Assembly: GCF_000026145.1 (NCBI RefSeq)
Contig: NC_009445.1
Location: 1,426,001-1,490,000 of the forward strand
Reading direction: 5' to 3'
DNA: 64,000 nucleotides
From: Bradyrhizobium sp. ORS 278
GTDB taxonomy: Bacteria > Pseudomonadota > Alphaproteobacteria > Rhizobiales > Xanthobacteraceae
The position numbers and the translations under genes were made by a program. Shown piece by piece: positions 5,105-63,825 of this stretch. The notes under the pieces were generated by a model, which was not told where the DNA came from, made no database searches, and saw only the letters and a program-made list of their open reading frames with translations. Position 1 is the first letter of the stretch, and each line of letters opens with the position of its first letter.

Positions 5105-5111
5105 CCGTCGA

Positions 5112-5955: not shown

Positions 5956-5968
5956 GGCGGACAAATTA

Positions 5969-5986: not shown

Positions 5987-6037
5987 TGTCAAGCTGCCGA
6001 ATCTCCGGTGGCAGCTGCTCCTGGATCTTGCGTCCCG

Positions 6038-34105: not shown

Positions 34106-36307
34106 ATGGCAAAGATTGAAGATTTGATTGCAAGAATCCCGGACGCCGGCCTCCGTATCGCGATAGGCAATGAAGTTAGGGAACTGAAGAAGGCTAAGAA
34201 ATTCGGACTGGTTTTCGAGAATCACTTGCCTGAGACGGTTCAACTCCCAAACCTGCCTGTCAGAGTCGGGGAAACGGTTGCCCGCAAACGGGATTCAGGG
34301 GAAATCTTGTGGATCGTGAAATCGATTCAAAAGGGGGTCGCAACACTTAGGCCAATGATTGAAGCGCCGACTCAAAATGAAATGCCCGTTGATGTCGGTA
34401 TTGACGAGCTGGTTGTCGTCAGGCGCTTCGGTGATCCAATCTATCCCACCTTGGTGTCAGTTGACAGGGTGAATCGAGGCGGACCGCAGAAGCCTTGGCA
34501 CACGCTCATTAAGGCGGACAATTTTCACGCCCTGCAGCTTTTGCTTTTCTGCTACCCGTCATCCGTGGACGTCATCTATATCGACCCGCCTTATAACTCC
34601 GGTGCGCGCGACTGGAAGTACAACAATGACTATGTTGATAAGACCGATACTTTCCGGCACTCGAAGTGGCTATCAATGATGAAGAAGAGGCTTCTAATCG
34701 CGAAGCATCTCCTCAAGCCCGATGGGGTTCTCATCGTAACCATAGATGAGAACGAGCTTCACCACTTAGGCCTGCTGCTGGAGGATGTATTTGAATCTTA
34801 CCTTCGTCACACTGTAACGATCGTTATAAACCCGAAGGGTGCCGGCAAGAGAAATTTTGCCCGAACAGAAGAGCACGCACTCTTTTGTGTCCCAAAAACG
34901 GGGCAGGCAATCGTCAACGCGAATATGCTTCGTGATCTGTCAAGAGTCGGGCTCTCTACCGAGATGGTTCAAGAAGAGTTCGACGAAGAGCTTGATGACG
35001 AGCCAGCCGAGCTTGCAGACGAAACCTCCGACGATGGATCTTTATTTGAACAGCAACTTTCCGACGATGTCGGATTAGACGAGCTGCCATTTCCGCCGGA
35101 CGAACTAGATCAATGGGAGCTTCGACATGCGCGTCGACGCGGCAATGAATCTAGCTATCGGCATCAGCGTAAGAATCAGTTCTATCCAATCTACATTGAT
35201 GAAAAGAGGCGGGTGGTCGAAGAGATTGGTGAGCCGCTTCTTCCTCTCGAAGCTCAACCGAGCTTCAAGAAAAAAAATGGTCTGACGCCCGTTTGGCCAA
35301 TTGACAAAGAGGGGAATCATCGCTGCTGGCGATTCATTGCGTCTTCCATGAAGAAAATTCATGAAGAGAAGCGGCTGGTCGTAGGCAGGCAAGACCCAAC
35401 CACAAAAGGCTGGACCCTCAACTATTGGATTCCGAAGAGCAAAACTAAAAATGTCAAAACGGTCTGGTGGCACGCTCGCCACGACGCAGGCACTCACGGG
35501 ACCAGTATGCTCCACAAGATTCTCGGGCGACGCGATGCTTTTCCTTTTCCAAAATCTCTTTACGCTACCCGAGATGCGCTCCTGACTGTAATTGGAAGTC
35601 GCCCTAATGCTCTCGTTCTAGATTTTTTCGCTGGTTCAGGTACTACTTTGCACGCTACAGCTCTACTGAATGCCCAGCTTGGTGGAAGTCGACGTTGCAT
35701 TCTCGTATCTAATAATGAGCCGGGTGCTACCGTCGCTGGTAAGCTTCGCCGCAAACAAATATATCCCGGAGACGCGGATTACGAAGCTGCGGGTATCTGT
35801 GAGAGTGTAACTTGGCCGCGGTGTAAGTTTGTCATCAATGGTAAACGCGATGACGGAACAGAGCTTGCTGGGACTTACCTAGACATTGAGGGGCACGAGA
35901 AAAATCTGCGTTGGTCGGACGGCTTTGAAGAGAATATCGAGTATTTCAATCTCGACTTTCTCGAGCCAGATGAGGTAGCCCGAGGAGATGCTTTTCGATC
36001 GATTCTTCCAATTCTTTGGTTGATTGCTGGGGCGTCGGGCGAGCGTGAAGACTCTAAGGGCACGTCTGCCTGGCACCTTCCGGCGCGCTCTCCCTATGCA
36101 GTTTTAATACGCGAAAAGGAGTTCTTGCACTTCAAAGAACGGTTGGCAGGGCGGAGTGACGTTGATTGGGTTTTCTTGGTGACTGATAGCGAAGAAAACT
36201 TTGCCCTCATGCGTCGTGCTCTCGGTAAGAAATACAAATGCTATCAGCTCTACAAGCAGTATCTTGAGAATTTTCGGATCAACGTGGCCGAAGTACTGAT
36301 GGATTAG
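34106..36307 (+). CDS. mod: Type III-like DNA methyltransferase (Mod subunit)
   Basis: 733 residues. The beta-class order is seen: catalytic DPPY at residues 160-163 (DVIYIDPPYNSG) and the AdoMet-binding FAGSG at 508-512 (VLDFFAGSGTTLHATALL). The large region between (about 240-480) includes an acidic stretch (EELDDEPAELADETSDDGS) and probably the target-recognition domain. It should methylate adenine N6 or cytosine N4 in its target. GC content and codon use are well below the surrounding genes, indicating transfer. The res gene follows after 5 bp. Confidence 0.93.
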   Translation: MAKIEDLIARIPDAGLRIAIGNEVRELKKAKKFGLVFENHLPETVQLPNLPVRVGETVARKRDSGEILWIVKSIQKGVATLRPMIEAPTQNEMPVDVGIDELVVVRRFGDPIYPTLVSVDRVNRGGPQKPWHTLIKADNFHALQLLLFCYPSSVDVIYIDPPYNSGARDWKYNNDYVDKTDTFRHSKWLSMMKKRLLIAKHLLKPDGVLIVTIDENELHHLGLLLEDVFESYLRHTVTIVINPKGAGKRNFARTEEHALFCVPKTGQAIVNANMLRDLSRVGLSTEMVQEEFDEELDDEPAELADETSDDGSLFEQQLSDDVGLDELPFPPDELDQWELRHARRRGNESSYRHQRKNQFYPIYIDEKRRVVEEIGEPLLPLEAQPSFKKKNGLTPVWPIDKEGNHRCWRFIASSMKKIHEEKRLVVGRQDPTTKGWTLNYWIPKSKTKNVKTVWWHARHDAGTHGTSMLHKILGRRDAFPFPKSLYATRDALLTVIGSRPNALVLDFFAGSGTTLHATALLNAQLGGSRRCILVSNNEPGATVAGKLRRKQIYPGDADYEAAGICESVTWPRCKFVINGKRDDGTELAGTYLDIEGHEKNLRWSDGFEENIEYFNLDFLEPDEVARGDAFRSILPILWLIAGASGEREDSKGTSAWHLPARSPYAVLIREKEFLHFKERLAGRSDVDWVFLVTDSEENFALMRRALGKKYKCYQLYKQYLENFRINVAEVLMD

Positions 36308-36312
36308 CGCGC

Positions 36313-38787
36313 ATGAAAGTTGAGCTTAAGACCTTCCAAACTGATGCGGCGCTTAGCGTTATCGAAGAGATTGACGAGGCGAGGGTAGCGGTCGGCAAGG
36401 GTAAGCTGCAAGCGGTTGTATTGAGTGCTCCCACCGGGTCAGGAAAGACTATTACAGTCGCTGCTGTCATCGAGTGGATACTGAGCGGTGCGGATGGAGT
36501 CGTCGCGCGCCCCAACACCGTGTTTCTTTGGCTGTCCGACTCGCCCGAACTGAACAACCAGAGCGCAGCAAAGCTCATTGGCGCCTGTGAAAACGTGACC
36601 TTCAATAAGGTCATTATTGTGGAGAGCGAAACATTCGATGAGGAGCGCCTGCGAGCAGGTTACGTATACTTCATCAATACCCAACTGCTCGGGAAAGATA
36701 AGTTGTTAACGAAGGGGGGGGACAAGAAGAATTTCACTTTCTGGCAGACCGTCGCTAACACCGTCAGTGCCTCTCCAATGGACTTTATCTTAGTAATCGA
36801 TGAGGCTCATCGCGGCGCGAGCGTGGCGGAACGAACTCGCAAGCCAATCATGCAGAAATTCATTACCGGCTCCGAGGAAGACGGTTTGCCACCTGTTCCA
36901 CTCGTCCTTGGTATGAGTGCCACGCCGCAGCGTTTTACCGATCTGCTCGGAAATACGGCGCGGACTCAGCGTCCAGTTGGTATTACTGCGGAAATCGCTC
37001 GCGCAAGCGGACTGCTTAAGGATTTGATCGTTGTAACCTGCCCGAAGACAGGCGCTCAAAGTGATCTCACTCTCCTGGAGCAAGCGGCAAGCCGATGGAA
37101 GCAGTTTCGCGACAAGTGGTCTGAATATTGTGCAAGAGAGAAAGAGGCCGAGATAGTCCGGCCCGTACTCGTGGTTCAGGTGGAGGATGGCACAGAGACT
37201 GTATTGAGTCGTACTCCCCTCCATGAGGTAGTTAAAGTGGTCGAGCGACAAATAGGGTCGCTCGGGCCGAATGAGATTGTGCACTGTTTTCAAGAAAGGC
37301 AGGACATCACTTATGGCGGCAGAATCATCCGGCGCATCGATGCATCGCGGATACAAGATGCAGCAGAAGTCAAAGTGGTTCTGTTTAAGACTGCGTTGAC
37401 TACCGGTTGGGACTGTCCGCGAGCGGAAGTCATGATGAGCTTTCGTCGCGCGCAAGATCCAACAAGCATTGCTCAGCTTGTCGGTCGAATGATCCGTGCG
37501 CCACTCGCGAGAAGAGTTGAGAGTGATGAGCTTCTGAACACCGTTGATCTTTATCTCCCGCACTACGACTCTGATGCGTTGGAGCGAGTTTTGGCAAAGT
37601 TGCGAAGCCCTGATGAGCAGGAGGGGATGCCTTCCGAAGTAACAACGAAAGCGGTCGAATATTCTCGAAATGCTGATCTTGCCACTGTGTTCGCATCTCT
37701 GAGCAAATTGCCTACCTATAGCGTTAGTCGCGTGCCAAAGATGAGCGATGTGAAAAGGGCGTTGCGCTTGGCAGGAATGCTGGCGCATGTCGGAATAGAT
37801 GTCGATGCTGATGATGAAATCCGAGAGAGGCTGACTTCTAAGCTGAAGGACTTGCGCGATAACTGTGCCCTTGACGATCCTGCGTGGACACAGATTGTGA
37901 GTGATGGCAGTGGGATCGATGTTGACGTGACTGCCGTGGCTCTCGGAACCATGAGCGTGGCAAGTCGTCAAACTGATCGCATTGCTTTGTCCCCTGAAAA
38001 TATTGATCACCTGTTCGAGGAGGCGGGCCGCAGGCTCGCTCCGTCAGAAGGGCTTCATCGGACGTATTGGAAACGCTTTCATGATCGCGAGAATCCAGGT
38101 TTGGCAAAGGTTGAGCTGTTTGCTCTGATCCGCCGAGCGGGGACTCTTGCGCAAGTTGAAGATGTAGCGCGTAGTTGCTTCGACAGTTGGTGGCTGAAAA
38201 ACAAATCGAAGATTGCCGTCTTGCCCGCTTCGGAGAAGGCGCGCTTCCAGTTGCTCGTGCAAGCAAGCGGTAAAGCGGTGAGGCAGGAACTGGAGTTGCC
38301 GCTTACGATCGTCGAAAAGCCTGGCGCTCGGACATGGAAGAATCACTTGTTTGTCGATCTTGCTGGCAATTTCGCCGCAAATATGAATAGCTGGGAAGAG
38401 GATTGTTTAGAATGGGCGGCACAATCACCCGATTTCGTCTGTTGGCTGCGTAATTTACCCCGTCGTGAATGGGCGCTTTGTGTTCCCTATGAAAGCGGCG
38501 GGGAAAAGCCGTTCTATCCCGATTTTCTGATAGTACGAAAGTCTGGAACTTCATTCGTCGTGGATGTAATGGAACCGCACGACGATAGTCGGACCGATAC
38601 TTGGGCCAAAGTGAAGGGGCTTGCTAGCTTTGCGGATGAACACCATCTGGCGTTCGGGCGTTTAATGATTGGCCGAAAAAAGAACGGTGCTCTGCAATTT
38701 ATAGATGTGTCAGAAGCGAAGACGCGTGCGAAGGCTCGCAAGCTAGCAGCATCGGCGGACTTAGAATCACTCTTTGAGGATGCTTAA
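36313..38787 (+). CDS. res: Type III-like restriction helicase/endonuclease (Res subunit)
   Basis: 824 residues. Superfamily 2 helicase motifs: Walker A APTGSGKT (P40-T46), DEAH at 163-166 (VIDEAHRG), SATPQRF, and motif VI QLVGRMIR at 388-395. The C-terminal nuclease-like segment has Asp737 in FYPDFLIV followed by FVVDVMEPHDDS (D751, E754), where a canonical PD-(D/E)xK site would need a Lys after the second acid. Together with mod it should form an ATP-driven restriction complex, or a related defence complex if the nuclease site is inactive. Confidence 0.9.
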   Translation: MKVELKTFQTDAALSVIEEIDEARVAVGKGKLQAVVLSAPTGSGKTITVAAVIEWILSGADGVVARPNTVFLWLSDSPELNNQSAAKLIGACENVTFNKVIIVESETFDEERLRAGYVYFINTQLLGKDKLLTKGGDKKNFTFWQTVANTVSASPMDFILVIDEAHRGASVAERTRKPIMQKFITGSEEDGLPPVPLVLGMSATPQRFTDLLGNTARTQRPVGITAEIARASGLLKDLIVVTCPKTGAQSDLTLLEQAASRWKQFRDKWSEYCAREKEAEIVRPVLVVQVEDGTETVLSRTPLHEVVKVVERQIGSLGPNEIVHCFQERQDITYGGRIIRRIDASRIQDAAEVKVVLFKTALTTGWDCPRAEVMMSFRRAQDPTSIAQLVGRMIRAPLARRVESDELLNTVDLYLPHYDSDALERVLAKLRSPDEQEGMPSEVTTKAVEYSRNADLATVFASLSKLPTYSVSRVPKMSDVKRALRLAGMLAHVGIDVDADDEIRERLTSKLKDLRDNCALDDPAWTQIVSDGSGIDVDVTAVALGTMSVASRQTDRIALSPENIDHLFEEAGRRLAPSEGLHRTYWKRFHDRENPGLAKVELFALIRRAGTLAQVEDVARSCFDSWWLKNKSKIAVLPASEKARFQLLVQASGKAVRQELELPLTIVEKPGARTWKNHLFVDLAGNFAANMNSWEEDCLEWAAQSPDFVCWLRNLPRREWALCVPYESGGEKPFYPDFLIVRKSGTSFVVDVMEPHDDSRTDTWAKVKGLASFADEHHLAFGRLMIGRKKNGALQFIDVSEAKTRAKARKLAASADLESLFEDA

Positions 38788-45145: not shown

Positions 45146-47974
45146 ATGACGATCGTCTCGCGGGCGCTGCTGACCTGCTGTGCCCTGCTGATCGCCCCGA
45201 TCGGCGCAAGCGCGCAGACGCCGCTGGTCGAGGAGGCCGCAGCGCCGGCCGAGCCATATCAGGGCCCGTTCGCCTATGACGAGCAGGAGACGGTGGTGGC
45301 GCGGTCGCCGACCGGGGCCGTGTCGCTCGATCTGCCGCCGGGGCTCTCGCTGCGCGACTACGAGGCGTCGCCGGCCGGCACCGAGGTCGCCGTCATCGTC
45401 GAGGATGCATCGCGCCGCCAGCAGGTGGCCTTCTGGGCGTTCGGCCGCGAGGGATTTGCCCGCCGCATCGACGTGCCCGCGCAGACGCGGCTCGCCTCGA
45501 TCACCTGGCACCCGCACGGCAAGGCGCTGTTCCTGCTGGCCATCGGCGAGCGCGGATCGCAGATCCTCAAGCTCGACGCCAAGGCAGCGAGCTTCACGGC
45601 GCAGACGGTTTATTCCAGCGCCGCGCCTTTGCGACGGCTCGTTGTCGGCCCGCGGCCCTTCGAGGTGAACGGCGAGAAGGCGCCGGTGCTGCGGCTGTTC
45701 TTCGGCGAGAGGCTCGCCAGCGGCGCCTACGCCCTGCGTACGGTCACCGAGACCGGCAAGGCGTTGTACACGGTGGTCGGGCCGCAGCGCGACGCCGGCA
45801 AGACGAACGACGATGACGCACCGAACACCACGATCGCGCCGTCGGCGCTGCCGCTGCAGTTCCATCCGGCCGGCAACCAGCTCATCTGGGAGGACCAGAA
45901 GAAGTGCCTGCACAAGCTCGGCTACGGCGTCGACAATTGGGGCAAGAGCGCGCCGTTCGGCCGCGACTGCGGCCATACGCTGACCTACGCGCCGAACGGC
46001 ATCGCTGCGATCGACTGGCAGCCGGGGCAGCCCGGCATCCGCATCAAGGGCCTCGTCGACGGCTCCGACCAGCCGGCGCTCAGCGAGTACAAGCTCGATT
46101 CGGTGCCGTCGCAGATGCCCGACGGCCGCGGCGTCATCGCGCTGACCGCTGACGGAGCGACCAGGAGTCTGCGCTATCTGCCGATCGCCGTGCCGCTCGC
46201 CGATGTCGCCAATGCCTGGATGTACATGGAGAGCGCTGCCGACCAGCAGGCCTTCCTGCGGGATCGCGGTCTATTCCGGCCGTTGCCGGAGATCGACCAG
46301 CTCTTCAAGCTCTACGATACCGAATCCTATCAATGCGGCGCGCCTGACACCCGGATGCCGACGCGGCCCTATCTGGTGACCACGGACCTGTTCTGGGAAT
46401 TGTACAGCGCGGCCTTCGACGGGCTGTTCATCATCCTGGAGCGTGAACAGGCGGGGCCCGCCCTCGCGCGTTTCGTCGCGGCGGCGGATGCGGAGCTTGC
46501 GAAGCGCCATCCGGGCAGCCGCATGGCCATCGCATTCGCCGCGGCGCATGCCGTGCTCGAAGGCCGCAGCGACTCCAACGCGGAAGCGCGCCTGATCGTA
46601 GCGGCCCGCGGCTCTGCGCAGTCGCTGGCGCTGCAGGCACCGCTGGACTTCGCGCAGTTCAAGCCGCGCGGGCACTACACGACGGATGCGCAGAAGCGCT
46701 ATTTCGGCGCGGTGCGCTATCTCAGCGCGCTGCCGCTGTCGGCCGAGGACACCGCGATGCTGCGTGGCCTCGATGCCGCCGTCGGCAAAGCGGCGACCGA
46801 CTGGATCGCCGTTTACCGGCCGTTCATCGCCTCGTCGCGGTTCGACCTCGTCTGGGGCGGCGCCGCCTCGACCATCGCCTCGCATCCGGACACGCGCGGC
46901 ACGCGGCTGTTCCCGTTGTCCTGGGGCTGGGACAATGAGGCGCTCGACAATGTCGTCGATCATGCCGAGCGGCCGGACGCCGAGCGTATCACCTCCCGCG
47001 ACGGCGGCTCGCGCCTGTTGCCGTCGGGTCTCGACTTTGCGGCGATTGCCGGCAACCGGCTGGCAGGCGAACTGCTCAGCCGCGACTTCGCCACCTATCC
47101 CAATCTCGCCGGCCGTATCGCCGCCGTGCGGCAGCGCTTTGTTGCCGCCGGCGGCAGGTCGCGCGGTGGCCTCTACGACTCCTGGATCGCCGCGCTGGCC
47201 ACGCAATGGGCCGACAGCACGACGGCTTCGGCGGTCGCGGGACCAGTGTGGAACGCCAAGCGCCTGCAGACCGGCCTCGCCTCATGGGCGACGCTGCGCC
47301 ATGCCACCGTGCTGGTCAACGACAAGACTGTGGCCGAATGCGGCGAGGGCGGCTTCGAGGCGATCGTGATGCAGCCGCCGCGCGGCTATGTCGAGCCTGA
47401 TCCGGCAAGCTTCGCGGCGATCGCCGACCTGTTCGAGGCCACCATCGCGATAGTCCGGGACAGCCGGAGCCTTGCGGCAGATGCCGCGGCCAATGCGCGT
47501 CTCCGCGACGGCATCATCCGGCGCCTGACGGAGTCGCGCGACACCATCCGCAAATATCAGAACATCGCCGAGAAGGAGTTGAAGGGCGAGGGGCTGAGTG
47601 CGGAGGACTTCAGGCTGATCCAATATGTCGGCCGCGCCGCCGAGCACAATTTCCTGATCTTCTCCAGCCTGTCGAACCCGCAATACGCGCTGTCCAACCC
47701 CGACCCGATGATGAAGGTGGTCGACGTCGCCGATGCGCCGTCGGAGACGCGCGAGCTCGGGGTCGGCCGGCCGCTCGAATGGGACCACATCGTGCCGTAC
47801 AGCGGCCGCTCGGAGATCGTCAAGGGCGGTGTCTATTCCTACTACGAGTTCGCCTCGCCGCAGCCGATCGATGACGCCGCCTGGCGCAAGGTGGTCGATG
47901 CGCAGGTGCGGCCGGATTGGGTGGCGCGGCACCTGTCGGCGAACGTGCTGTCGTGTCCGGCGCGTCAGCCGTGA
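45146..47974 (+). CDS. Secreted DUF3160 family protein
   Basis: 942 residues with a signal peptide (LLTCCALLIAPIGASA-Q). Residues about 25-340 look beta-rich, with WD-like segments (AEVAVIVEDASRRQQVAFWA type). From about 350 the DUF3160 domain is recognisable (RPYLVTTDLFWELYSAAFDG, then HWWDNEALDNVV-like and WDHIVPYSGRSEIVKGGVYS). The function of DUF3160 is unknown; it is exported. The stop codon overlaps the next gene's start by one base (TGATG), so the two products are probably made in fixed ratio. Confidence 0.85.
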   Translation: MTIVSRALLTCCALLIAPIGASAQTPLVEEAAAPAEPYQGPFAYDEQETVVARSPTGAVSLDLPPGLSLRDYEASPAGTEVAVIVEDASRRQQVAFWAFGREGFARRIDVPAQTRLASITWHPHGKALFLLAIGERGSQILKLDAKAASFTAQTVYSSAAPLRRLVVGPRPFEVNGEKAPVLRLFFGERLASGAYALRTVTETGKALYTVVGPQRDAGKTNDDDAPNTTIAPSALPLQFHPAGNQLIWEDQKKCLHKLGYGVDNWGKSAPFGRDCGHTLTYAPNGIAAIDWQPGQPGIRIKGLVDGSDQPALSEYKLDSVPSQMPDGRGVIALTADGATRSLRYLPIAVPLADVANAWMYMESAADQQAFLRDRGLFRPLPEIDQLFKLYDTESYQCGAPDTRMPTRPYLVTTDLFWELYSAAFDGLFIILEREQAGPALARFVAAADAELAKRHPGSRMAIAFAAAHAVLEGRSDSNAEARLIVAARGSAQSLALQAPLDFAQFKPRGHYTTDAQKRYFGAVRYLSALPLSAEDTAMLRGLDAAVGKAATDWIAVYRPFIASSRFDLVWGGAASTIASHPDTRGTRLFPLSWGWDNEALDNVVDHAERPDAERITSRDGGSRLLPSGLDFAAIAGNRLAGELLSRDFATYPNLAGRIAAVRQRFVAAGGRSRGGLYDSWIAALATQWADSTTASAVAGPVWNAKRLQTGLASWATLRHATVLVNDKTVAECGEGGFEAIVMQPPRGYVEPDPASFAAIADLFEATIAIVRDSRSLAADAAANARLRDGIIRRLTESRDTIRKYQNIAEKELKGEGLSAEDFRLIQYVGRAAEHNFLIFSSLSNPQYALSNPDPMMKVVDVADAPSETRELGVGRPLEWDHIVPYSGRSEIVKGGVYSYYEFASPQPIDDAAWRKVVDAQVRPDWVARHLSANVLSCPARQP

Positions 47975-53973: not shown

Positions 53974-54060
53974 CGTCATGGCCGGGCCTGTCCCGGCCAT
54001 CCACGTCGTCCGACTTTCCGAGAACGGCGTGGATGCCCGGGACAGGCCCGGGCATGACGG
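53974..54060. repeat. Palindromic intergenic repeat, family B
   Basis: Starts CGTCATGGCCGGGCCTGTCC and ends GGGACAGGCCCGGGCATGACG, with GGCGTGGATGCC inside. It fills most of the 298-bp gap between the dehydrogenase and J-domain genes and may end both convergent transcripts. Confidence 0.8.
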
Positions 54061-54156
54061 AGCAACTAATAAGTAGGATCGTCCGCTGGGACAGCTCTGC
54101 ATCTCCAGATGCGGTAGTGGCGCATCTCGACGGGGCGCCCTGCGGCTTCCAACCTG

Positions 54157-54624
54157 CTAGTCCAGTTGCGCCAGCAGGGCCTCGCGCGCCTCGGATATGC
54201 GCCGGTAGAGCTCGTTGCTGCCGCCGGCATCGGGGTGCGCTGATTTGGCGAGCCTCCTGAAGCCCGCGTTGATCTCCATCGCCGTCAGGCGGCCCTGCAG
54301 CGGCAGGTTGAGCAGCGCGCGATAGGCTTCGTCATCTTCGTCCCGTGAGAGCTGATCGAGCAAGGCGCGCCTCGCCGCGCGTGCCGCAATGCGCAAGCCG
54401 TCCTGATCCTCGCGCCAGCGCTGCTGCGACATCACGAGGCAGGCGCCGAACGAGATCTGGCCGTGCGTCTCCAACTCGTCGAGGCTGAACGGCCCGACGA
54501 CGTCATAGGGCGGCGCGAGCGATGCCAGCCGGCCGGCCGCCCCGTCGACAATCGGGCCGAGCCGGACCGTATCGACGATGCCCATCGACCCGTTCCAGAT
54601 CACCCATTCCCCGGCGCTCGTCAT
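54157..54624 (-). CDS. J-domain (DnaJ-like) protein
   Basis: 155 residues from the ATG at 54622-54624. The N-terminal half (DVVGPFSLDELETHGQISFG, QDGLRIAARAARRALLDQLS) is not recognised. The C-terminal 60 residues form a J domain with the HPD tripeptide in RLAKSAHPDAGGSNELYRRI, so it should stimulate an Hsp70 ATPase. The J domain is at the C-terminus rather than the usual N-terminus. The open frame continues upstream into the frameshifted Rieske gene, with no stop in between. Confidence 0.8.
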   Translation of the reverse strand: MTSAGEWVIWNGSMGIVDTVRLGPIVDGAAGRLASLAPPYDVVGPFSLDELETHGQISFGACLVMSQQRWREDQDGLRIAARAARRALLDQLSRDEDDEAYRALLNLPLQGRLTAMEINAGFRRLAKSAHPDAGGSNELYRRISEAREALLAQLD

Positions 54625-54680
54625 GCGGCCACTCGTATCGATGCGGCGTTTGTCCGCGCTCCTCGCTTCGCGCGCCGACG

Positions 54681-55020
54681 TCAGGCTGGCGTCCGCGCCG
54701 GCTTCACCGGGCCGACATCGACCTGGATCTCGCCACCTTCGATCTGCAGCGGATAGGAATGCAGCGCATTGCGCACGAGATGCGTGATGCATTTTGCCGC
54801 TCGTGCTGTCGAAGCCCCATTGATGGTGCGGACAGGTGATGGTCTTGCCGTCGAAAGTGGCTTCGGTCAGCGGCACGTCGGCATGCGGACAACGTCCGCG
54901 CCATGCCGTCAGCGCGCCGCCGTCCGGCCAGAGCAGCAGCACGCTTTTCTTGCCGACCTGGAACAGGCCCATGCCGCCTTCGGAGATGGCGCTTGTCGGA
55001 CAGACTGCGGTGAAAGCCAT
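54681..55020 (-). pseudogene. Rieske-type ferredoxin, frame shifted by one base
   Basis: Starts at the ATG at 55018-55020. The Rieske cluster motifs RCPHADVPL and TCPHHQWGF supply two Cys and two His ligands and are intact. After GKM the expected ending (CITHLVRNALHSYPL, then EGGEIQVDVGPV and a stop at 54681-54683) continues in the neighbouring frame; removing one T from TTTT at 54792-54795 restores it. As read, the frame instead runs into the J-domain gene. The intact form, about 112 residues, resembles TmoC-type electron carriers. A sequencing error is possible. Confidence 0.8.
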
Positions 55021-55132
55021 CGGATCGCCTATTGATGATGCCGTTGGACTTGCTCTCGCAATTTCCGGACCAGCGGATTCGGACGCAAACCGACGACTCA
55101 TTGTCGCAAACCCGACAAGCAGTCGATGCGAA

Positions 55133-57010
55133 CTAATGACGGCCGAGCGCAGCCAAGAACTCCGCCTGCGGAATGAACAGGCCCTGGGCGCGGACCAGGC
55201 CACGGCCGAGATCGCACAGCAGGTCGCCCTTGCCGAACAGGCTCTCGGCGCCGGGTTCATCCAGCACGATCTGCGCATTCACGGCATTGGCGACCTTCAG
55301 GCAGACCTTGAGCGGCAGGTTGGATTTGATCAGTCCGGTGACGACCGCGCGATCGGGACGCTGGGTCGCCAGCACCAGATGGATGCCGGCGGCACGGCCC
55401 TTGCCGGCGATGCGCGCGACCAGCGCCTCGAACTCCTTCTTGTCGTCGCGACCGGCCAGGATCAAATCGGCGAACTCGTCGAAGATCAGCACCAGGAAGG
55501 GCAGGTCGGTCTTGCCCGCCTTGATGTAGTCGTCGAGATTGACGACGCCCGCGCCGTTCAGGATCTGATAGCGCGCATCCATCTCCTTGACGGCGTCGCG
55601 CAGGATTCTCAGCGCCTCGCCAAGCGTGGTCGCGACGGGGCGCCACAGATAGGGACTGCCGCCGACGCCGGAGAAGGTCAGGATCTTCGGATCGATCAGC
55701 GCGATCTTGACCTGCTCGGGCGAGCCGCGTAGCAGCATGCTGGCGACCATGGCCTTGAGCCATTCGCTCTTGCCGCTTCCGGTGGAGCCGGCGACCAGCG
55801 CGTGACAGGTGTTGGGATCGGCGAAATCGGCGATGATCGGGTTGCCTTCAACGTCGATGCCGACGGGGAAGCTCACGGTGCTCTTCAGGGCGGATGCGAG
55901 CGGCCCGGCCAGCGCGTCCTTCAGCAGGCACGGCTTCGGATCAGGCCGCGGCAGATCGAGAATGACGAAGCCTTTGCCGGCCTTGATCAGCGGCGGCTCG
56001 GCGAGGTCGAGCTTGACCTGCAGGTCGGCAGCGCGGTTGGCGAGCGAGGCGACCTTCACGCCGGGACCCGGCGTGAGCCGTAGCCGGATCAATTGCGGTC
56101 CCTCGATGACGTCGGCGCAGTCGACGGCGAGATTGAAACTGCTGAAAGCCTCGACGACGGCCTTGCCGAGCGGGTTCGCGCCAGGCCGCAGCGCAGGCGC
56201 GCCTGCTTCGACGGGCGTTGGCGGGACCGCTCGTGTATCGGGTGTCGCGGCCGCGGAACGCGACGGCGTGACGGCCGTGTCGTCGAACATCTCCCGCAGT
56301 ACCGGATCGACCATGCCGGTGAAGATGTCCTTCAACTCCTCCGGAGCGACCGAGACCTCCTGGAAGTCCGGCAGATAGTACTCCAGCGTTCCTGCGAATT
56401 CGCAGCCTGGCCGCCAGATCGGCAACAGGTGCGCATAGATCGAAAGCTGCACCAGATCGGCCTTCTGCCGCGCGCCCTGGCTGAGCTTGTAGTCGACGAC
56501 CTCGAGATGCTGCTCAGGATGGATGCGGATGGCATCGACGCGGCCGCGGATTTCCACGACGGTGTTGCCGACCGGCACGGGAATACGCGCCAGATTCTGC
56601 TCGGCACCGACGAAGACGTCCTGCCAGTTCTCGAAATGGCGCGTCCGTGCCCGCAGCGCGATCAGCCGGGCGCAGAAGCGGCGCATCCGCTCGGTGAAGA
56701 CCGCAGCGTCCTCGCCGCGGCCGGCTTCGAACAATTTATCGGTGAGGGCCTGCAGCGAATTCGCCCAGAGATGATCGACCAGCGCATCGACGGTATCGAT
56801 CCTTGACGCGGCCCTCAGGCTGCCGCGCGCCGTCAGCCAGCCGACCAGCTTCTCGACCTCCTTGTGGAACGTCACGCCCATCGCACGCACTGTGCCGACC
56901 GGCGCGAAGCTCTTGGTCGACGGCTTCTCGCCACGCAGCCATCTGGCGCGCCAGTCGGGATCGAGCACGGCGAAGGTGAGCTCTGTCGCCGTTATGCTGT
57001 GATGCGCCAT
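55133..57010 (-). CDS. PD-(D/E)xK nuclease fused to FtsK/SpoIIIE DNA translocase
   Basis: 625 residues from the ATG at 57008-57010. Residues 1-235 form a RecB/Cas4-like nuclease: His49 (VTFHKEVEKL), Asp159 (EIRGRVDAI), D173-x-K175 (LEVVDYKLSQ), and QLSIY at 188-192. After a Pro/Ala-rich linker (about 248-278), residues 280-625 hold an FtsK alpha/beta domain (RLRLTPGPGVKVASLANRAA) and motor: Walker A GSTGSGKS (408-415), Walker B VLIFDEFADL (507-516), ATQRPD (548-553), and GAESLFGKGDLL. No membrane domain or gamma domain is present. It overlaps the ATPase gene by 19 nt. Confidence 0.9.
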   Translation of the reverse strand: MAHHSITATELTFAVLDPDWRARWLRGEKPSTKSFAPVGTVRAMGVTFHKEVEKLVGWLTARGSLRAASRIDTVDALVDHLWANSLQALTDKLFEAGRGEDAAVFTERMRRFCARLIALRARTRHFENWQDVFVGAEQNLARIPVPVGNTVVEIRGRVDAIRIHPEQHLEVVDYKLSQGARQKADLVQLSIYAHLLPIWRPGCEFAGTLEYYLPDFQEVSVAPEELKDIFTGMVDPVLREMFDDTAVTPSRSAAATPDTRAVPPTPVEAGAPALRPGANPLGKAVVEAFSSFNLAVDCADVIEGPQLIRLRLTPGPGVKVASLANRAADLQVKLDLAEPPLIKAGKGFVILDLPRPDPKPCLLKDALAGPLASALKSTVSFPVGIDVEGNPIIADFADPNTCHALVAGSTGSGKSEWLKAMVASMLLRGSPEQVKIALIDPKILTFSGVGGSPYLWRPVATTLGEALRILRDAVKEMDARYQILNGAGVVNLDDYIKAGKTDLPFLVLIFDEFADLILAGRDDKKEFEALVARIAGKGRAAGIHLVLATQRPDRAVVTGLIKSNLPLKVCLKVANAVNAQIVLDEPGAESLFGKGDLLCDLGRGLVRAQGLFIPQAEFLAALGRH

Positions 57011-59097
57011 TGCAGGAAGATGGTCTTGGGCCCGGGATGGGCCTTGAGATTGGGATGCGCCTCGACGCTGCGCAACAAGGGATCGCGCAGCTCCTTGCGC
57101 CCGAGCCTGTCGAGCACGACGGAGATGTCGACGATGCGCTGCTCGCGGACGAGGTCGAGCACAGTCCGCAGATCGTCGCCGTCGAGTGCGTGGGACGCGT
57201 CTGTCGTTTGCCTGGTCGTGCGCTGCGGGTTCGCCGCCGGTCCGCCGGCATCGACGCTGCGCACCTTGATCGGCATCCCGGCGGTGGCGATGTCGGCGAG
57301 GAACGGCGCGAAGCGTGTCTGCAGCCAGGCGAGGGTGGCGGGACCCGAAAATGCGATATTGCCCTGCAGCGCATTGGAATAGAGCTCGCGCGCGGCATGC
57401 AACTCGCAGACCTGATCGAGCGTCAACTCGACGATGCGGAAGCCGTGGCGGCCCGCCTGGTCCATCGTCGCCTTGGCGACCGCCCAGGACGGCCGCGGCA
57501 CGCGGGCGAGGTCGGGCGTGCGGAACACATAGGTGAGCGCAGGGCGGCCGCTTTGAGGGCCAGACAAAGCAATCGCCTCGTCGGCAATCGCCTTCCAGCG
57601 ACGCCAATGATCGCCGCCTTCGAAAGCGAAGTAGACTCTGCGATCCGGCCAGCGCCATTCGAAAGAGAAGTAGCGCCGCCCTGAGGTCCGACCCGCCTTC
57701 ACCCCGGTCATGGCCTGGCCGACATCCTTGGCGAACCACATGAGGCAGTCCTGATTGTAGACCTGCAGCGCTTTTTGGGAGCGGATATTGTTGAGCTCGA
57801 TCTGGAAGAGATCGTCGAGGGTTTGCGGCGAAGGGGGCGCCGCATCGGGCCGCGCCAGCGCCGTGAAGCGGTCCTCCGCGCGCATCAGTAGCGCGCGTAC
57901 GCCGAGCTCGGTCAGCGTCGAGAACAGATCGTCCAGCCACGCGTCAGAAAAGAAGCGTGCGGCGTCCCTGGGCTGCATGCCGCACAGCGTCAGCCTGTTC
58001 TCGATCAGCTCGCGCGCGCCGGCCTTGGTGATGCCCTCGAGCGCAATCTCCTGCGAGAAGCGGTCGCGATGCGCCGGCTCAAGATGCGGCTTGATGTCCT
58101 CGACCCAGTTGCGCTGGTTCGCGGTCACCACGGTGAGGTGGTTGCGCAACTCGGCATAGAGCTGCTCGATACAATTGCCGAGCGCCTTGATCAGCAAGGC
58201 ATCGCTGGCGTAGCACTCGGTCTGGTCGAAGCAGAACACGAAGGGCCGGTAGTAGGACGCGAGCTGACAGAGACCCTGCAGCCTGCCGAAGCTCAGGGCA
58301 TTGATCTCCTGCGGAGTGACGTCGCCGCGGCCGTCATTGTCGGCCTGGTCCAGACGCAACTGCTCGACCTCCTCCGGCTCCAGCGGCTCGGCGCGCAGCC
58401 ATTTCAGCGCCGCGCGCCGCCGCTCGCCGTCGGCCTCATCGAAGGCGCAGGCGACGAGAATCTTGAGCCAGGCCTTCTCGTGCCCATGCAGGTCGATGTG
58501 CCGACTCCTGAGCAGCCCGGCCAGCCGGTTGATCGGTCCGTTGCTGGCGAACAGCGCGCTCAGCCATCCGAGACGGGCCGGCATCTCGGCCGCAGGCAGC
58601 GTGCCGCTGGCGAGACGCCGCAGCGCGGGCACGGCCGCCGCGATCTCGGGCGCGCCGTTCTCAGCAAAGTCCGCGACGATATGCGCCAAGGTTCCGACCG
58701 CAAGCGAGCTCAGCTGGCTCGGCGCCTCCGCGCTCCCGTCGTCGGGACGGTCGAGTTCCTGCAGCGTGAGCAGCAGGATCGACTGCCATGCTTTATAAGG
58801 ATCCTGGAACGGTCGCAAATAGACCTTGGTGGCCTTGCGTCCAAGCGCGGTAAACAGCCGGCCGAGCAGATGCGATTTGCCGTAGCCGCGATCCGGCGAC
58901 ACGACCAGCTGGGCGCGATCGGACTTGACCGGGCTGCTGCGGGGCAGTTCGCCTCCCTCGAGCGCGGCGAACTTGGTGAGCACGCGGTTCAGCGGCGCAT
59001 CGTTGAGCCCGTTGACCGAGAACGTCACGTCGCGCGGCTCGCGGACGATGGCGTCCTCGAATGGATTGACCTGGATGCCGACGTAAGGGTTGCTCAT
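56992..59097 (-). CDS. P-loop ATPase of the nuclease-translocase operon
   Basis: 701 residues. The Walker A motif is SPDRGYGKSH (residues 67-76), and a Walker B-like motif is FVFCFDQTE (D291, E294), where DQTE replaces the usual DE pair. The N-terminal NPFEDAIVREPRDVTFSVNG and long helical C-terminus suggest a STAND/ORC-like AAA+ protein that clamps or loads something. I do not recognise a named family. Its ATG overlaps the stop of the upstream gene (ATGA), and its end overlaps the nuclease-FtsK start, so the three proteins are made together. Confidence 0.85.
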   Translation of the reverse strand: MSNPYVGIQVNPFEDAIVREPRDVTFSVNGLNDAPLNRVLTKFAALEGGELPRSSPVKSDRAQLVVSPDRGYGKSHLLGRLFTALGRKATKVYLRPFQDPYKAWQSILLLTLQELDRPDDGSAEAPSQLSSLAVGTLAHIVADFAENGAPEIAAAVPALRRLASGTLPAAEMPARLGWLSALFASNGPINRLAGLLRSRHIDLHGHEKAWLKILVACAFDEADGERRRAALKWLRAEPLEPEEVEQLRLDQADNDGRGDVTPQEINALSFGRLQGLCQLASYYRPFVFCFDQTECYASDALLIKALGNCIEQLYAELRNHLTVVTANQRNWVEDIKPHLEPAHRDRFSQEIALEGITKAGARELIENRLTLCGMQPRDAARFFSDAWLDDLFSTLTELGVRALLMRAEDRFTALARPDAAPPSPQTLDDLFQIELNNIRSQKALQVYNQDCLMWFAKDVGQAMTGVKAGRTSGRRYFSFEWRWPDRRVYFAFEGGDHWRRWKAIADEAIALSGPQSGRPALTYVFRTPDLARVPRPSWAVAKATMDQAGRHGFRIVELTLDQVCELHAARELYSNALQGNIAFSGPATLAWLQTRFAPFLADIATAGMPIKVRSVDAGGPAANPQRTTRQTTDASHALDGDDLRTVLDLVREQRIVDISVVLDRLGRKELRDPLLRSVEAHPNLKAHPGPKTIFLQWRITA

Positions 59098-59864
59098 GGA
59101 TCGTTCTTGACGACGACGGTCACGAAAGGTTCCGGAAAGCCGGCGAGCTTGATGCCGGCATCCATTTCCTCCTTCGGAAGATCGACCGTCGTCGTCGGAT
59201 GGATCGTGACCCGTCCGGCCTTCGTCTCCTCGATCAGCAGGCGATGCAGGTCCTCCTTCGTCGTTCCGCTCGCCTTCATGAGATCGAAGATCTTCACCGC
59301 GGAGAAGCCGCCTTGTTCGCCCTTGAGGCGGCGATAGGCCGGGAGCAGGTCTCCCAGGGTGAGAGCGCCCGCGGCAGCGCCATCATGCGAAGGTGCCTCG
59401 CTCTCGGACGCCGCGGCGGCGAAGCCGAAATAGTCGGCTGCGACATCGCGATGCAGATAATATTTCGAGCTACCGCAGGTCAGCTCCACGATCGCCTGGC
59501 TGGCGACGGCGTGCTTCAGTCCGTCGGGAAAGAACTTCTTGTTCAGCCCGGTGATTTTCTTCTCAAGCCCTGGCTTGGAGATCAGCTTGACGCCGGAGGC
59601 GGCGATCAGCCGCACGATCGCCTGGCTCGCCGTCTCCACGGAAGGGCCGTGACCGCTGGCGAAATACAGCTGCGCGACGCCCTGCCTCAGTGGCCCCCAG
59701 ATCGCACCTTCGCGCGTGAGCGAGGCGAGATGCTCGCGCAGCTCCGGCGAGACGACTTTCGCAGCCGCCTTGCCGCCGAACGTCGTTTTGATCCTGGCGA
59801 GGCTCATTCCGGAGTCGCCGGCCTTGATGATGGCGGGCAGGAGGTCGTCGAGCTTCGCGGCCAT
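59094..59864 (-). CDS. Multi-winged-helix-like protein, first gene of the operon
   Basis: 256 residues from the ATG at 59862-59864, with GGGGTGA 7 nt before it; the frame is open to 60035, but the upstream part reads like low-quality sequence. Three similar helical units are visible: LDDLLPAIIKAGDSGMSLAR, SQAIVRLIAASGVKLISKP and LGDLLPAYRRLKGEQGGFSA, each followed by a short beta-hairpin-like stretch, as in winged helices. The C-terminus ends in a conserved-looking EPFVTVVVKND. It probably binds DNA or bridges the ATPase and translocase. No known family recognised. Confidence 0.75.
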   Translation of the reverse strand: MAAKLDDLLPAIIKAGDSGMSLARIKTTFGGKAAAKVVSPELREHLASLTREGAIWGPLRQGVAQLYFASGHGPSVETASQAIVRLIAASGVKLISKPGLEKKITGLNKKFFPDGLKHAVASQAIVELTCGSSKYYLHRDVAADYFGFAAAASESEAPSHDGAAAGALTLGDLLPAYRRLKGEQGGFSAVKIFDLMKASGTTKEDLHRLLIEETKAGRVTIHPTTTVDLPKEEMDAGIKLAGFPEPFVTVVVKNDP

Positions 59865-60033
59865 GGCAGTCACCCCTGCGGGGGGAACCGCCAGCAGCAA
59901 GATCACCAGCGCAGGTCCAACTCCCCCGTCATCGCCGTTGTTTGCCATATCTGTCGCGGGCGCGCGAGTCCGTCGTCCTCGGTCCGTCACGTCTGTGTTG
60001 TTTGAGCCGTTTGGCGAAGGCAGTCTAAACGAC

Positions 60034-60060
60034 AAAACGCCGCCCGGGAGGGGCGGCGTT
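60034..60060 (-). terminator. Terminator of the ABC transporter operon
   Basis: Stem AACGCCGCC / GGCGGCGTT with a 7-nt loop; on the minus strand it is followed by TTTTGTC. It ends the binding-protein gene and separates it from the nuclease-translocase operon. Confidence 0.85.
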
Positions 60061-60094
60061 GCAGAGCAGGTCGATCAGAGCGGAGGGTCGCGCT

Positions 60095-61042
60095 CTACTC
60101 CTTCCGCTCCGAGGTCCAGCCCTTGTATTCGGCGACGTTGTCGCGCGTGATCAGCTTGGACGGCAGGAGCTCTACGGTGGACGCCGGCTTCTGGCCGTTG
60201 AGCAGGCCGACGCCGATCTGCACGGCGCGGCGCGCCATGAAGAACGGATCCTGCGAGGCGGAGGCCTGGATCTGCGGGGTGGCCGGATCCTTCAGGGCGG
60301 CCTCGATGTCCGGGGCGCCGTCGACGGAGGTGATGATGATGCCGGTGCGTCCCTGCTGACGGGCGGCGAGATCGGTGCCGATCGCCTGCGGATCGTTGAT
60401 CGCGAAGATCGCATCGATCTTCGCGTAGCGCGTCAGGTAGCCCTGCGCCACGGTGAGGCCGCCTTCGCGCGAGCCCTTGCCGTCCTGGTCGCTCGACAGC
60501 ACCTTGATGCCCGGGGCCTTGGCGAACACGCTCTTGCAGCCATTGACGCGGTCAATCACGGCCGACACCTGCGGGCCGTTCTGGATGATCACGTCGCCCT
60601 TGCCGCCGAGCTTGTCGACGATGTACTGGCAGGAGATCTCGCCGGCCTGCACGTTGTTGGTGGTGACGGTGGCATCGGCGCCCTCGGCCGCGGTGTCGAC
60701 CGCGACGACGAGAATGCCCGCCGCCTGTGCCTTCTTGATCGCCGGGCCGATCGCCTTGGGATCACCGGGATTGAGCAGGATCATATCGACGCCGGCGGCG
60801 ATGAAATTGTCGATCTGGGTGACCTGCTTGCCGAGATCGTATTCGAAGCCGACCGCGGTGATCTTGACGTTGGGATTGGTCTTCTTGGCTTCGAACTCGG
60901 CGCCCTTCGACAGGGCGACGAAGAACGGATTGCCGAGCGAGCCGAGCGAGACGCCGATCGATTTCAGCTCCTTGGCCGAGGACGGCGCGGAGCTCATGAC
61001 AAGCGCCAGCGCGGCACCGGCGAGCGAAATGGTCTTCAACAT
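60095..61042 (-). CDS. Sugar ABC transporter periplasmic binding protein (RbsB-like)
   Basis: 315 residues. A signal peptide (LKTISLAGAALALVMSSAPS) precedes a type I periplasmic binding domain: SIGVSLGSLGNPFFVALSKG, ILLNPGDPKAIGPAIKKAQA, DAIFAINDPQAIGTDLAARQ and IIITSVDGAPDIEAAL are family landmarks. It should deliver a pentose, hexose or cyclitol to the permease encoded just upstream. It is the last gene of the operon. Confidence 0.93.
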   Translation of the reverse strand: MLKTISLAGAALALVMSSAPSSAKELKSIGVSLGSLGNPFFVALSKGAEFEAKKTNPNVKITAVGFEYDLGKQVTQIDNFIAAGVDMILLNPGDPKAIGPAIKKAQAAGILVVAVDTAAEGADATVTTNNVQAGEISCQYIVDKLGGKGDVIIQNGPQVSAVIDRVNGCKSVFAKAPGIKVLSSDQDGKGSREGGLTVAQGYLTRYAKIDAIFAINDPQAIGTDLAARQQGRTGIIITSVDGAPDIEAALKDPATPQIQASASQDPFFMARRAVQIGVGLLNGQKPASTVELLPSKLITRDNVAEYKGWTSERKE

Positions 61043-61142
61043 TGGTTTCCTCCCTGGTCCTTTTTAAATCCCTGCGCACGGCGGACCAGCGGCCGTGGAA
61101 GAACGTTGAAGCTTGCCGCCATCAGCGGCCCGCCGGTTGATC

Positions 61143-62174
61143 TCAGGTGCGGGCCGAGCCCTGTAGCCGGTAGCGGTCGAGCGCGACGGCGCCGATGATG
61201 ACGAGGCCCTTGATGACGTATTGCCAGATGTCGGACACGCCGACCAATATGAGCCCGTTCGACAACACGGCGATGATGAGCGCGCCGACCAGGGTACCCC
61301 AGATCGAGCCGATGCCGCCGACGAAGGAGGTGCCGCCGAGGATGACCGCGGTGATCGCGTCGAGCTCGTAGGACTGGCCGAGCTGCAGGCCGTTCGCCGC
61401 GTAGAGCCGCGCCGCCTGCATGCCGCCGCCCAGGCCGGCGAGCAGGCCGGACATGCCGTAGACGAACAGCAGCACGCCCCAGACCTTGATGCCGGCGAGC
61501 CGCGCCGCGCTCTCATTGCCGCCGACGGCGTAGATGTGCACGCCGAGCACGGTGCGGCGCAGGATCAGCCACGAGCCGAGGATGACGAGCAGCGCGATCA
61601 CCGACAGCCAGGGAATCGAGAGCACGCCGGGAATGATCGTCAGCGAGGCGTTGCCGATGAAGGCGTAGGGGATCGTCGGGTTGAACACGGTGGTGTCGCC
61701 GCCCATCAGGCGGGCGAGGCCGCGCACCGCGGTGAGCGAGCCGAGCGTGACAATGAAGGGCGGCAGCCTGAGCAGCGCGATCAGCGCGCCGTTGACGACG
61801 CCGAAGGCAAGGCCCGTGAGCACCGCGGCCGGCAGCCACAGCGCGCCGAGCTCGGGCATCTTCGACAATGTCAGGCCGGCCATCGCAGCCGCGGCAAGGA
61901 TCGAGCCGACAGAGAGATCGATCCCGCCGGTCAGGATCACGAAGGTCATGCCGGCCGCAAGCACGGTGTTGACGGCGGCCTGCTGCAGCACGATGCCGAG
62001 ATTCTGTCCGGTGAAGAAGCGCCCCTCCGACAGCATGTGGAAGCCGATGCACAGGATCAGCAGCACCGGCAGCATGCCGGCGGCGCGGATCATCACCCGC
62101 AACCGCTGCTGCTTGTTGTCGGATGTCGACGGCAGCGTTACGACCTTGGCTTGAGCTGAGCTGTTATCAGGCAT
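61143..62174 (-). CDS. Sugar ABC transporter permease (RbsC-like)
   Basis: 343 residues from the ATG at 62172-62174. About nine or ten helices with the family core [20 protein letters not shown] then [20 protein letters not shown], and [20 protein letters not shown] near the C-terminus. It forms the membrane channel with the upstream ATPase, whose gene it overlaps by 8 nt. Confidence 0.93.
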
Positions 62175-63690
62175 CGACGTGCTCCGTCCCGGTGGCCAGC
62201 GCCATGATGTCTTCCTGGGTGATGGGTGATGCCGTGCTCTGCTGCAACTCGCCGGCGAGATGGCCTTCGCGCATGACAAGCACGCGGTCGCAGATGCCGA
62301 GAATCTCCGGCAGGTCGGACGAGATCACCAGGATCGCGGTGCCGGCCTTGGCGAGATTGTCGATGATCGAATAGATCTCCGACTTGGCGCCGACATCGAC
62401 GCCGCGCGTCGGCTCGTCTAGGATCAGGACCTTCGGCGCGGTCGCGAGCAGGCGCGACAGCAGCACCTTCTGCTGATTGCCGCCCGACAGGCCGCCGACG
62501 GTGACGCCGGGATTGGGCGCCCGGATGCCGAGCGCGCTGAACGCCTCGTCGGCCCGCTCGCGCGCCTTGTCGCGGTCGAGGAGGCCGCCGAGCCTGGCGT
62601 CGCGGCCGATCACCGCGAGGTTGATGTTGTCGGCACAGGACATGTCGAGGAACAGGCCGAGCGCCTTGCGGTCCTCGGTGAGATAGGCGATGCCGGCGTC
62701 GAGCGCGTCGCGCGGCGTCTCGATCTCGATACGCTCGCCGTCGAGCTCCAGATGCCCTGTCGTCCTGGGCGTCGCGCCGATGATGAGATGCGCGAGCTCG
62801 GTGCGCCCGGCGCCGATCAATCCGGCGAGACCGACGACTTCGCCGGCATGCACCGTGAGCGAGCATCCCTTGACGCGATGGCCGTCGCCGAGATCGACCG
62901 CCGTGAGCACCGCGCGGTCGCGCTTGGCGTGCGGGTCGTGGTCCTTCTTGTAGAACGACGACACGTCACGCCCGACCATCATGCGCACGATGCTGTCGGC
63001 GCGGATCTCCGGCTTGTCGAGCGAGCCCACCAGCCGGCCGTCGCGCAGCACAGTGACGCGATCGCCGAGCGCGTAGACCTCGTCCATGCGGTGCGAGATG
63101 TAGATGATGGCAAGGCCTTCCGAGCGCAGCTGGCGGATCAAGGCAAACAGCTTCTCGCTCTCGCCGGCTGATAGCGAGGTGGTCGGCTCGTCCATGATCA
63201 GGATCTTCGAGCGCGCATGCAGCGCGCGGGCGATCTCGACCAGCTGACGCTGTCCCATCGACAATTCGGCAACCAGCGTCGCGGCCGAGAAGTCGGCGCC
63301 GAGCCGCTGCAGGATCGGTCCAACGGCGTCGCGCATGGCATTGCGCGCGAGCAGGCCGGATTGCGACAGCTCGCGTCCGAGATAGATGTTCTCGGCGACC
63401 GTCAGGTTCGGCGCCAGCGACAACTCCTGGTAGATGATCGCGATGCCGGCATTGCGGCCGCCCATCGGCCCCTCGATACGCACGACCTCGCCATCGATGC
63501 GGATCTCGCCGCCGGGATCGGGGCGGTAGGCGCCGGAGAGGATTTTCATCAAGGTGGATTTGCCGGCGCCGTTTTCGCCCATCAGCGCATGAACTTCGCC
63601 GGCATAGACGGTCAGGTCGACCTTCTGCAGGGCCTTGATGGCGAAGAATGACTTCGACACCCCGCGCATCTCGAGGATCGGACCTTTCAT
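62167..63690 (-). CDS. Sugar ABC transporter ATP-binding protein (RbsA-like)
   Basis: 507 residues from the ATG at 63688-63690, with GGGAGG just before it. It has two fused ABC domains: the first has a full Walker A ([12 protein letters not shown]), signature [15 protein letters not shown] and [11 protein letters not shown]; the second has the degenerate Walker A ([12 protein letters not shown]) and signature [15 protein letters not shown] usual for this family. It powers monosaccharide import with the permease and binding protein downstream. An upstream TTG could extend it by four residues. Confidence 0.94.
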
Positions 63691-63825
63691 CGTGCCTCCC
63701 AACGCACGTCGTCTTATCTCCCGCGGCTCATTGATGTCGGCGCGGGGACGCCATTAAACTAGAGGCTGTTGCCGAATACAATATGAAAGACCATCGACGT
63801 GCCACGTCGGCGCTTGTGGCGCCCG

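Follow-up and report, generated by a model that had tools for sequence, protein, structure and literature searches.

Anti-invader systems of the 'HerA/FtsK capture' kind, in which motors that pump DNA are taken over for defence and used to stop invading DNA, have been predicted by comparative genomics and include an Orc/CDC6 class (Rakesh, Aravind, Krishnan, NAR 2024; PMC10853773). In that paper's description of the class, an inactive restriction endonuclease (REase) invariably lies between the ATPase core and a C-terminal winged helix-turn-helix (wHTH), and there is an active REase as well. An FtsK with an FtsK-alpha domain is present in one set, and a subset has an extra gene for a fast-evolving protein of two to four wHTHs (PMC10853773). 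The same text gives two REase families for the class, and a 3'-5' exonuclease fused to FtsK in some members (PMC10853773). Here we analyse a trio of overlapping genes, called A, B and C, in a 64,000-nucleotide (nt) stretch of the Bradyrhizobium sp. ORS 278 genome, a single contig of 7,456,587 bases (NC_009445.1, positions 1,426,001 to 1,490,000; hereafter the window). We conclude, with a probability of roughly 0.6, that the trio belongs to the Orc/CDC6 class. A defence role for these genes is what we infer.

The three genes are on the minus strand and are transcribed in the order A, B, C:

59094..59864, minus strand: gene A, 256 aa, with three predicted winged-helix modules (residues about 1-72, 73-146 and 167-256)
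56992..59097, minus strand: gene B, 701 aa, a predicted ORC/Cdc6-type AAA+ ATPase with an REase-like middle part and a C-terminal winged helix
55133..57010, minus strand: gene C, 625 aa, a fusion of PD-(D/E)xK nuclease, FtsK-alpha and FtsK motor (Pfam)
59094..59097, minus strand: A/B overlap, 4 nt
56992..57010, minus strand: B/C overlap, 19 nt, which code for both the last residues of B (QWRITA-stop) and the first of C (MAHHSI)

A first-pass annotation of this DNA had read the three open reading frames (ORFs), overlapping by 4 and 19 nt, as one unit, and we confirm every one of these points. It had also left room for homologues that occur singly in housekeeping contexts. What we found instead is a co-conserved unit: the order A-B-C is present in 8 of the 13 distinct loci that have a B relative (the window, L002-L006, L015 and L019). 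Moreover, the B/C overlap is exactly 19 nt in all eight. The A/B junction is a 4-nt overlap in six of them and a 2-nt gap in the other two. The recurrence of the order and the identity of the 19-nt overlap together argue that the trio is not a chance arrangement. The 13 loci are the window, L002-L006, L014-L019 and L051, with a second plasmid record of the L051 strain left out; B is frame-broken in L019, and both of its pieces were used for the junction count.

The remaining five loci depart from this order. L014 has a weak match to A (E 5e-4; 0.0065 for the best domain), and after it a single open frame (3027-6281) that joins B to FtsK-alpha and motor but lacks both the nuclease and the final winged helix of B. 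Three others (L016, L017 and L018) have a remote B only, with CFDR[LM]ED as its Walker B region. Ahead of this B stands a gene that overlaps it by 4 nt in L016 and L018, and a cut-off piece in L017; the preceding genes are unmatched by the A profile at E up to 1, and no FtsK-nuclease gene was found beside the remote B, the L016 contig being only 3.75 kb long. The fifth, L051, is a B fragment on a plasmid, near IS6 transposase genes.

The PD-(D/E)xK nuclease joined to an FtsK motor that had been proposed for C is borne out by Pfam families and by intact motifs:

56435..56536, minus strand: nuclease core D159, D173-x-K175 and Q188-x3-Y192, invariant in 13/13 aligned proteins
55976..56170, minus strand: FtsK-alpha, residues about 281-345 (PF17854, 3.6e-7, residues 283-341)
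55157..55918, minus strand: FtsK motor, residues about 365-618, with Walker A GSTGSGKS, Walker B FDEF and TQRPD (PF01580, FtsK_SpoIIIE, 2.8e-40, residues 365-552)

The nuclease part matches PDDEXK_1 (PF12705, 5e-11). All 13 aligned proteins keep its core residues and, before these, H49; in the motor they also keep the TGSGKS Walker A, FDEF and TQRPD. Judged by its motifs, the nuclease is predicted to be competent. We take it to be of the RecB/Cas4 type, a label with which weak matches of C to Cas4, AddA and AddB are in line. Two C homologues, P0227 and P0234, have no Pfam PDDEXK_1 match; P0234 nonetheless keeps the nuclease residues. Among the 11 Pfam matches of C at E up to 1 there is no gamma-domain or membrane family of cellular FtsK. 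The motor is the most conserved part of the whole trio, with a mean identity of 84.6% among near relatives. Near relatives are what these means cover, because they were taken from the best matches (the best 120 of 309, 1851 and 200) and, for B and C, only the candidates sharing most words were scored; kept by length, they comprise 117 proteins for A (linker 115), 112 for B (linker 111) and 112 for C (linker 45).

Gene B supplies the ATPase:

58870..58899, minus strand: Walker A SPDRGYGKSH, residues 67-76 (from conservation in 41 aligned proteins)
58216..58233, minus strand: Walker B region CFDQTE, residues 289-294 (from conservation in 41 aligned proteins)
57298..57780, minus strand: candidate inactive REase fold, residues 440-600, with no D...ExK (from the order of secondary structure in a model of B)
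56995..57186, minus strand: putative C-terminal winged helix, residues 638-701 (from the order of secondary structure in the model)

The Walker A and the DQTE Walker B that the first-pass annotation had pointed out are present and largely invariant. Indeed, in the alignment of 41 B proteins, the window's included, S67, P68, G71, K74, S75, H76, C289, D291 and T293 do not vary, and D69, R70, Y72, G73, F290, Q292 and E294 are at least 90% conserved. Pfam gives B a sub-threshold AAA_16 match (0.0023) and a chance-level one (0.46), and a PDB sequence search with the B profile returned only chance-level rows. In a structural model, the first half of B shows what appears to be an ORC/Cdc6-type AAA+ fold.

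The middle part of B, between the AAA+ core and the C-terminal wHTH, has in the model an alpha/beta order as for an REase, with no ExK: a helix (449-462), three strands (467-470, 477-482 and 487-491), a second helix (498-512) and a further strand (520-526). No REase family was found there in Pfam at 0.1 across 41 B members, or in the PDB sequence search. Structure matches of whole B likewise gave no REase-type fold, their rows barely covering the residues past 423. The winged helix at the end is modelled as three helices (640-653, 658-665 and 668-680) and two strands (684-688 and 693-697), and its mean identity over 112 near homologues is 75.2%. The ATPase lid is the least conserved part of B (51.6% mean identity among near relatives).

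An AlphaFold2 model supports the reading of A as a multi-winged-helix protein, made in the first-pass annotation: it has three modules of the order helix-helix-helix-strand-strand, which suggests a chain of three winged helices. A has no Pfam match at E up to 1, and only chance-level rows in a PDB sequence search with its profile. The first module is the least conserved of the three:

59649..59864, minus strand: first winged helix of A (wHTH1, residues 1-72)

Over 117 near homologues the mean identity of wHTH1 to the window is 56.8%, vs 73.4 and 75.0% for the other two wHTHs. Two A homologues, P0249 and P0250, are longer (337 and 434 aa), and in the alignment P0249 has the N-terminal module once more.

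How well does this trio fit the Orc/CDC6 class? We compared the two by the class description in the text of PMC10853773. The likenesses are an Orc/CDC6 AAA+ ATPase, in the trio with a candidate extra domain before a putative C-terminal wHTH, an active nuclease, an FtsK with FtsK-alpha, a separate multi-wHTH protein and a compact operon (PMC10853773). Against that description the trio shows four class features by motif or model, and two more are consistent but unproven; those found include the Orc/CDC6-family AAA+ ATPase, the active nuclease domain (by motif) and the FtsK motor with FtsK-alpha. The difference lies in the nuclease, which is RecB/Cas4-like by motif in the trio, whereas the class as described has two REase families. 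That the trio is a new member of this predicted class is well supported. The first-pass annotation had seen a defence or DNA-processing system related to, and distinct from, the described ones. Its placing of the role near DndFGH and HerA systems holds up, in view of the architecture, the rarity, the decay and the exchanged parts; its statement that it could match the trio to no named system does not, since the Orc/CDC6 class fits. The identity with a described system that would have told against novelty is therefore largely what we find, with two of the class parts unproven in the trio.

The trio is rare. Counting the window's own genome each time, and in sets that overlap, B was found in 1/60 relatives, in 2/242 genomes of the genus, in 1/397 of the order and in 6/398 of the phylum, three of these six being remote; the searches scored few candidates per genome (2-4 for the profile), so that copies may be missed. 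Peptide patterns run against 84,980 species genomes hit 5 loci, of which four lie outside the genus. The named B relatives among the best 120 matches listed include proteins from Bradyrhizobium, Rhodoplanes and Rhodovulum.

It is also subject to decay. The window, G170 and SSBR45G (L004) share one site for the trio, adjoined by the same transporter genes (window 60095-63702), which we read as a sugar ABC transporter. At this site blastn shows that a close relative, G089, has kept the neighbours on both sides and has lost the trio by deletion (scar at L043:9420-9624). What remains in G089 is the equivalent of window 56336-56540, from the nuclease part of C, and the first ~21 nt of A; window 55119-56335 and 56541-59843 have no blastn counterpart. 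G089 is one of eight Bradyrhizobium stretches read around the transporter genes; of the window proteins used for comparison, the other seven have the three transporter proteins and no more. The B of G170 is divided over two frames, which may be a sequencing error, and that of B. oligotrophicum S58 is a protein of only 510 residues.

Different parts of one protein can have different nearest neighbours. In the B protein P0011 (Bradyrhizobium sp. USDA 4353), residues 1-420 share 74.3% identity with P0016, for which a short contig is the sole source, and 64.0-65.7% with six Bradyrhizobium-type proteins (P0001-P0006). For residues 426-703 the order is reversed: 74.6% to P0016 and 83.6-89.2% to P0001-P0006. 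Similarly, wHTH1 of the A protein P0248 (B. oligotrophicum) has 76.4% identity with P0264 (from S58, which carries the same species name) and 75.7% with P0288, as against 52.7-59.5% with five further Bradyrhizobium-type proteins. The remainder of P0248 is 75.7% (P0264) and 70.5% (P0288) identical, vs 78.9-85.6% to the five. Faster change alone would not yield such a pattern, because the nearest neighbours differ between parts of one protein. In the two proteins examined, the recognition parts look exchanged between lineages. A variable wHTH1 of A and a variable N-terminal half of B fit what would be expected if both meet a changing target. Taken together, the architecture, the rarity, the decay in relatives and the exchanged recognition parts fit a role in defence.

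These observations suggest how the trio could work. Protein A, with three winged helices of which the first is the most variable, would recognise a DNA feature of the invader. By analogy with ORC/Cdc6 and TnsC, B would assemble on the DNA at the place recognised by A and would load C there; the B-FtsK fusion in L014 points to direct contact between B and C. C, a gamma-less FtsK-type translocase that may form a ring as FtsK does, would then pump DNA into its own PD-(D/E)xK nuclease domain, and this domain would cut. The target, the rule that separates self from non-self, the assembly and the defence outcome are all steps that we infer. We also offer, tentatively and with the odds against it, a more specific proposal: a stand-alone, modification-free restriction machine in which an ORC/Cdc6-like loader places a gamma-less FtsK pump with a RecB-type nuclease on the invader. 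Target choice would lie in exchangeable parts (the wHTH1 module of A and, in B, the AAA+ half), recombining from lineage to lineage around a fixed motor-nuclease, much as Type I specificity subunits are swapped. The trio is a compact three-gene version of the capture idea, its motifs are intact, and G089 provides a natural null at the same site. It could therefore be used to examine directly how an ORC-like loader, an FtsK pump and a nuclease might distinguish foreign DNA from the cell's own when the set includes no modification enzyme.

Several points weigh against placing the trio in a class of defence systems. Foldseek support for the fold of B is weak, with 1 match at E ≤ 0.001 and TM-scores of ~0.25. 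A usual Walker B has a glutamate directly after the aspartate; the DQTE of B does not, and ATP hydrolysis by B is uncertain for this reason. The candidate inactive REase and the last winged helix of B, both read from the order of secondary structure in the model, are unproven. A literature search that took in few subscription journals found no anti-phage or anti-plasmid test of any member, and no name. Among the ORFs scanned or read beside the trio we recognised no modification gene. Finally, the flank scan speaks against a defence-island setting: in six loci, 30 of the 91 ORFs of a simple gene finder (the 91 including the trio's own) were scanned with Pfam at 1e-5, and these 30 flanking ORFs are mostly metabolic, with no mobile-element or recognised defence family among them. 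Four are unmatched and one has an EndoU nuclease domain.

The metabolic neighbours, and the same transporter genes beside the trio in three Bradyrhizobium (the window, G170 and SSBR45G), would suit an accessory DNA-repair or chromosome-processing set, in which C would combine translocation and end trimming like HerA-NurA or RecB-type resection and A and B would recruit it to damaged or stalled DNA. C fuses a RecB/Cas4-type nuclease to an FtsK that has FtsK-alpha, as cellular FtsK does, and BLAST gives it 184 and 176 bits to two cellular FtsK vs 116 and 106 to two SspH. Nevertheless, we consider a repair role unlikely: the trio is very rare in the genus and order, is deleted in one close relative and frame-broken in another, and has recognition parts that are discordant between lineages, unlike a repair core. 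The whole-sequence scores of C are likewise 207.6 and 197.3 bits for cellular FtsK vs 119.4 and 110.9 for SspH. We had first read this as evidence that the motor was captured from cellular FtsK; because the best single-domain scores (126.1 and 105.7 vs 118.9 and 110.1 bits) do not separate FtsK from SspH, cellular FtsK is no more than a candidate source of the motor. Cellular FtsK shares FtsK-alpha and motor with C, which differs in having no membrane part or gamma domain in the Pfam scan and an added nuclease domain. The genome has another FtsK elsewhere, with a stronger FtsK match.

The loss and breakage in relatives, together with the 510-aa B of B. oligotrophicum S58, could also mean that the trio is a decayed or neutral remnant with no present function. 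All three frames are open in the window, however, and the motifs are kept across distant loci, which makes a remnant improbable. We think it equally improbable that the trio belongs to a mobile element, with a TnsC-like ATPase, a nuclease and a DNA pump serving to move or maintain that element. None of the 30 flanking ORFs matches a transposase or integrase family. Inverted repeats in 54000-60200 amount to 59 pairs, of which the 25 longest are all imperfect and none brackets the trio. With the settings used, 111 pattern stretches in viral contigs included no trio relative, and a phage collection gave no match. On plasmids no whole relative was found: two Methylosinus trichosporium OB3b records have a match that covers 34% of B, and there is no C at 1e-60. 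The guanine-plus-cytosine (GC) content of the trio equals that of its surroundings (65.8% vs 64.9% for the window).

Membership of the Orc/CDC6 class also has to be set beside that of other motor-based systems. SspFGH, which damages unmodified DNA, has three proteins: one with a Walker A, a middle one, and one with an FtsK-like motor at its end (PMC8092258). The best PADLOC match of C is SspH (1.6e-52). However, C has 625 aa vs about 1766 for SspH, and only the FtsK part aligns (342-601; 243-614 in one PADLOC model). A and B have no PADLOC match at E up to 1, though the library has SspF and SspG models, and hhalign of B against one SspF and of A against one SspG gave probabilities of 0.0 and 0.8%, with the low power of single sequences. 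Searching the defence models, as the first-pass annotation had proposed, thus matched C, by its motor part, to SspH, mad8 and HerA, and matched A and B to none. There is no SspH in the window's own genome at 1e-60, and no sspBCD was recognised among the trio neighbours scanned or read, no genome-wide search for these genes having been made. We therefore reject SspFGH membership, as only the FtsK part of C aligns and A and B are unmatched. At the same threshold of 1e-60 SspH is present in 3/117 genomes of the genus, and another Bradyrhizobium genome has SspF, SspG and SspH genes (L057:6409-15385).

The motor of C matches HerA models and the mad8 model of MADS (PADLOC, 9.4e-24) too; the mad8 match is confined to the motor (residues 379-590), and no other MADS part is among the PADLOC matches of the trio. 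We weighed DndFGH and BREX on published accounts and adopted neither. DndFGH is alike in outline, with a multi-wHTH protein (DndG), a P-loop protein (DndF) and a protein with nuclease and FtsK/HerA parts (DndH), and it differs, as described, in its kinase-like DndF and many-domain DndH (PMC10853773). No Dnd-named family is among the PADLOC or NCBIfam matches of the trio, the presence of Dnd models in the two libraries being unconfirmed. For BREX, a 2026 paper takes up the same capture model, with sensor domains that localise the apparatus and a pump that captures DNA and feeds a nuclease (PMC12839542). Of the parts that mark BREX (BrxC, BrxA) and BREX-related capture systems, no PglZ and no methyltransferase (BrxX in BREX) was recognised directly beside the trio among the ORFs scanned or read, which are a part of the window ORFs.

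The first-pass annotation had asked whether the trio sits in variable loci. It does in that the neighbours differ from genus to genus, although the genes in question are metabolic. Mobile gene neighbourhoods are a further feature of the Orc/CDC6 class; the changing flanks would suit it, whereas the lack of any mobile-element family in the 30 ORFs scanned would not. Directly after C, on the same strand, window 54157-55050 (approximate ends) matches Rieske [2Fe-2S] (3.2e-15) and, below threshold, DnaJ (0.00047). In L019, too, the trio has a Rieske ORF next to it.

The window also contains a Type III restriction-modification pair (34106-38787), 16 to 21 kb from the trio and after a tRNA-Glu (33003-33077). 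It consists of a Mod methyltransferase (34106-36307; PADLOC MTase_III, 4.6e-123) and a Res helicase-nuclease (36313-38787; Pfam ResIII, 2.4e-13), and it lies in a low-GC stretch (56.5-57.9%, 4-kb bins). The pair is likely to be a small horizontally acquired insert. Elsewhere in the window, 45146-47974 encodes a 942-aa protein with DUF3160 (2.6e-62).

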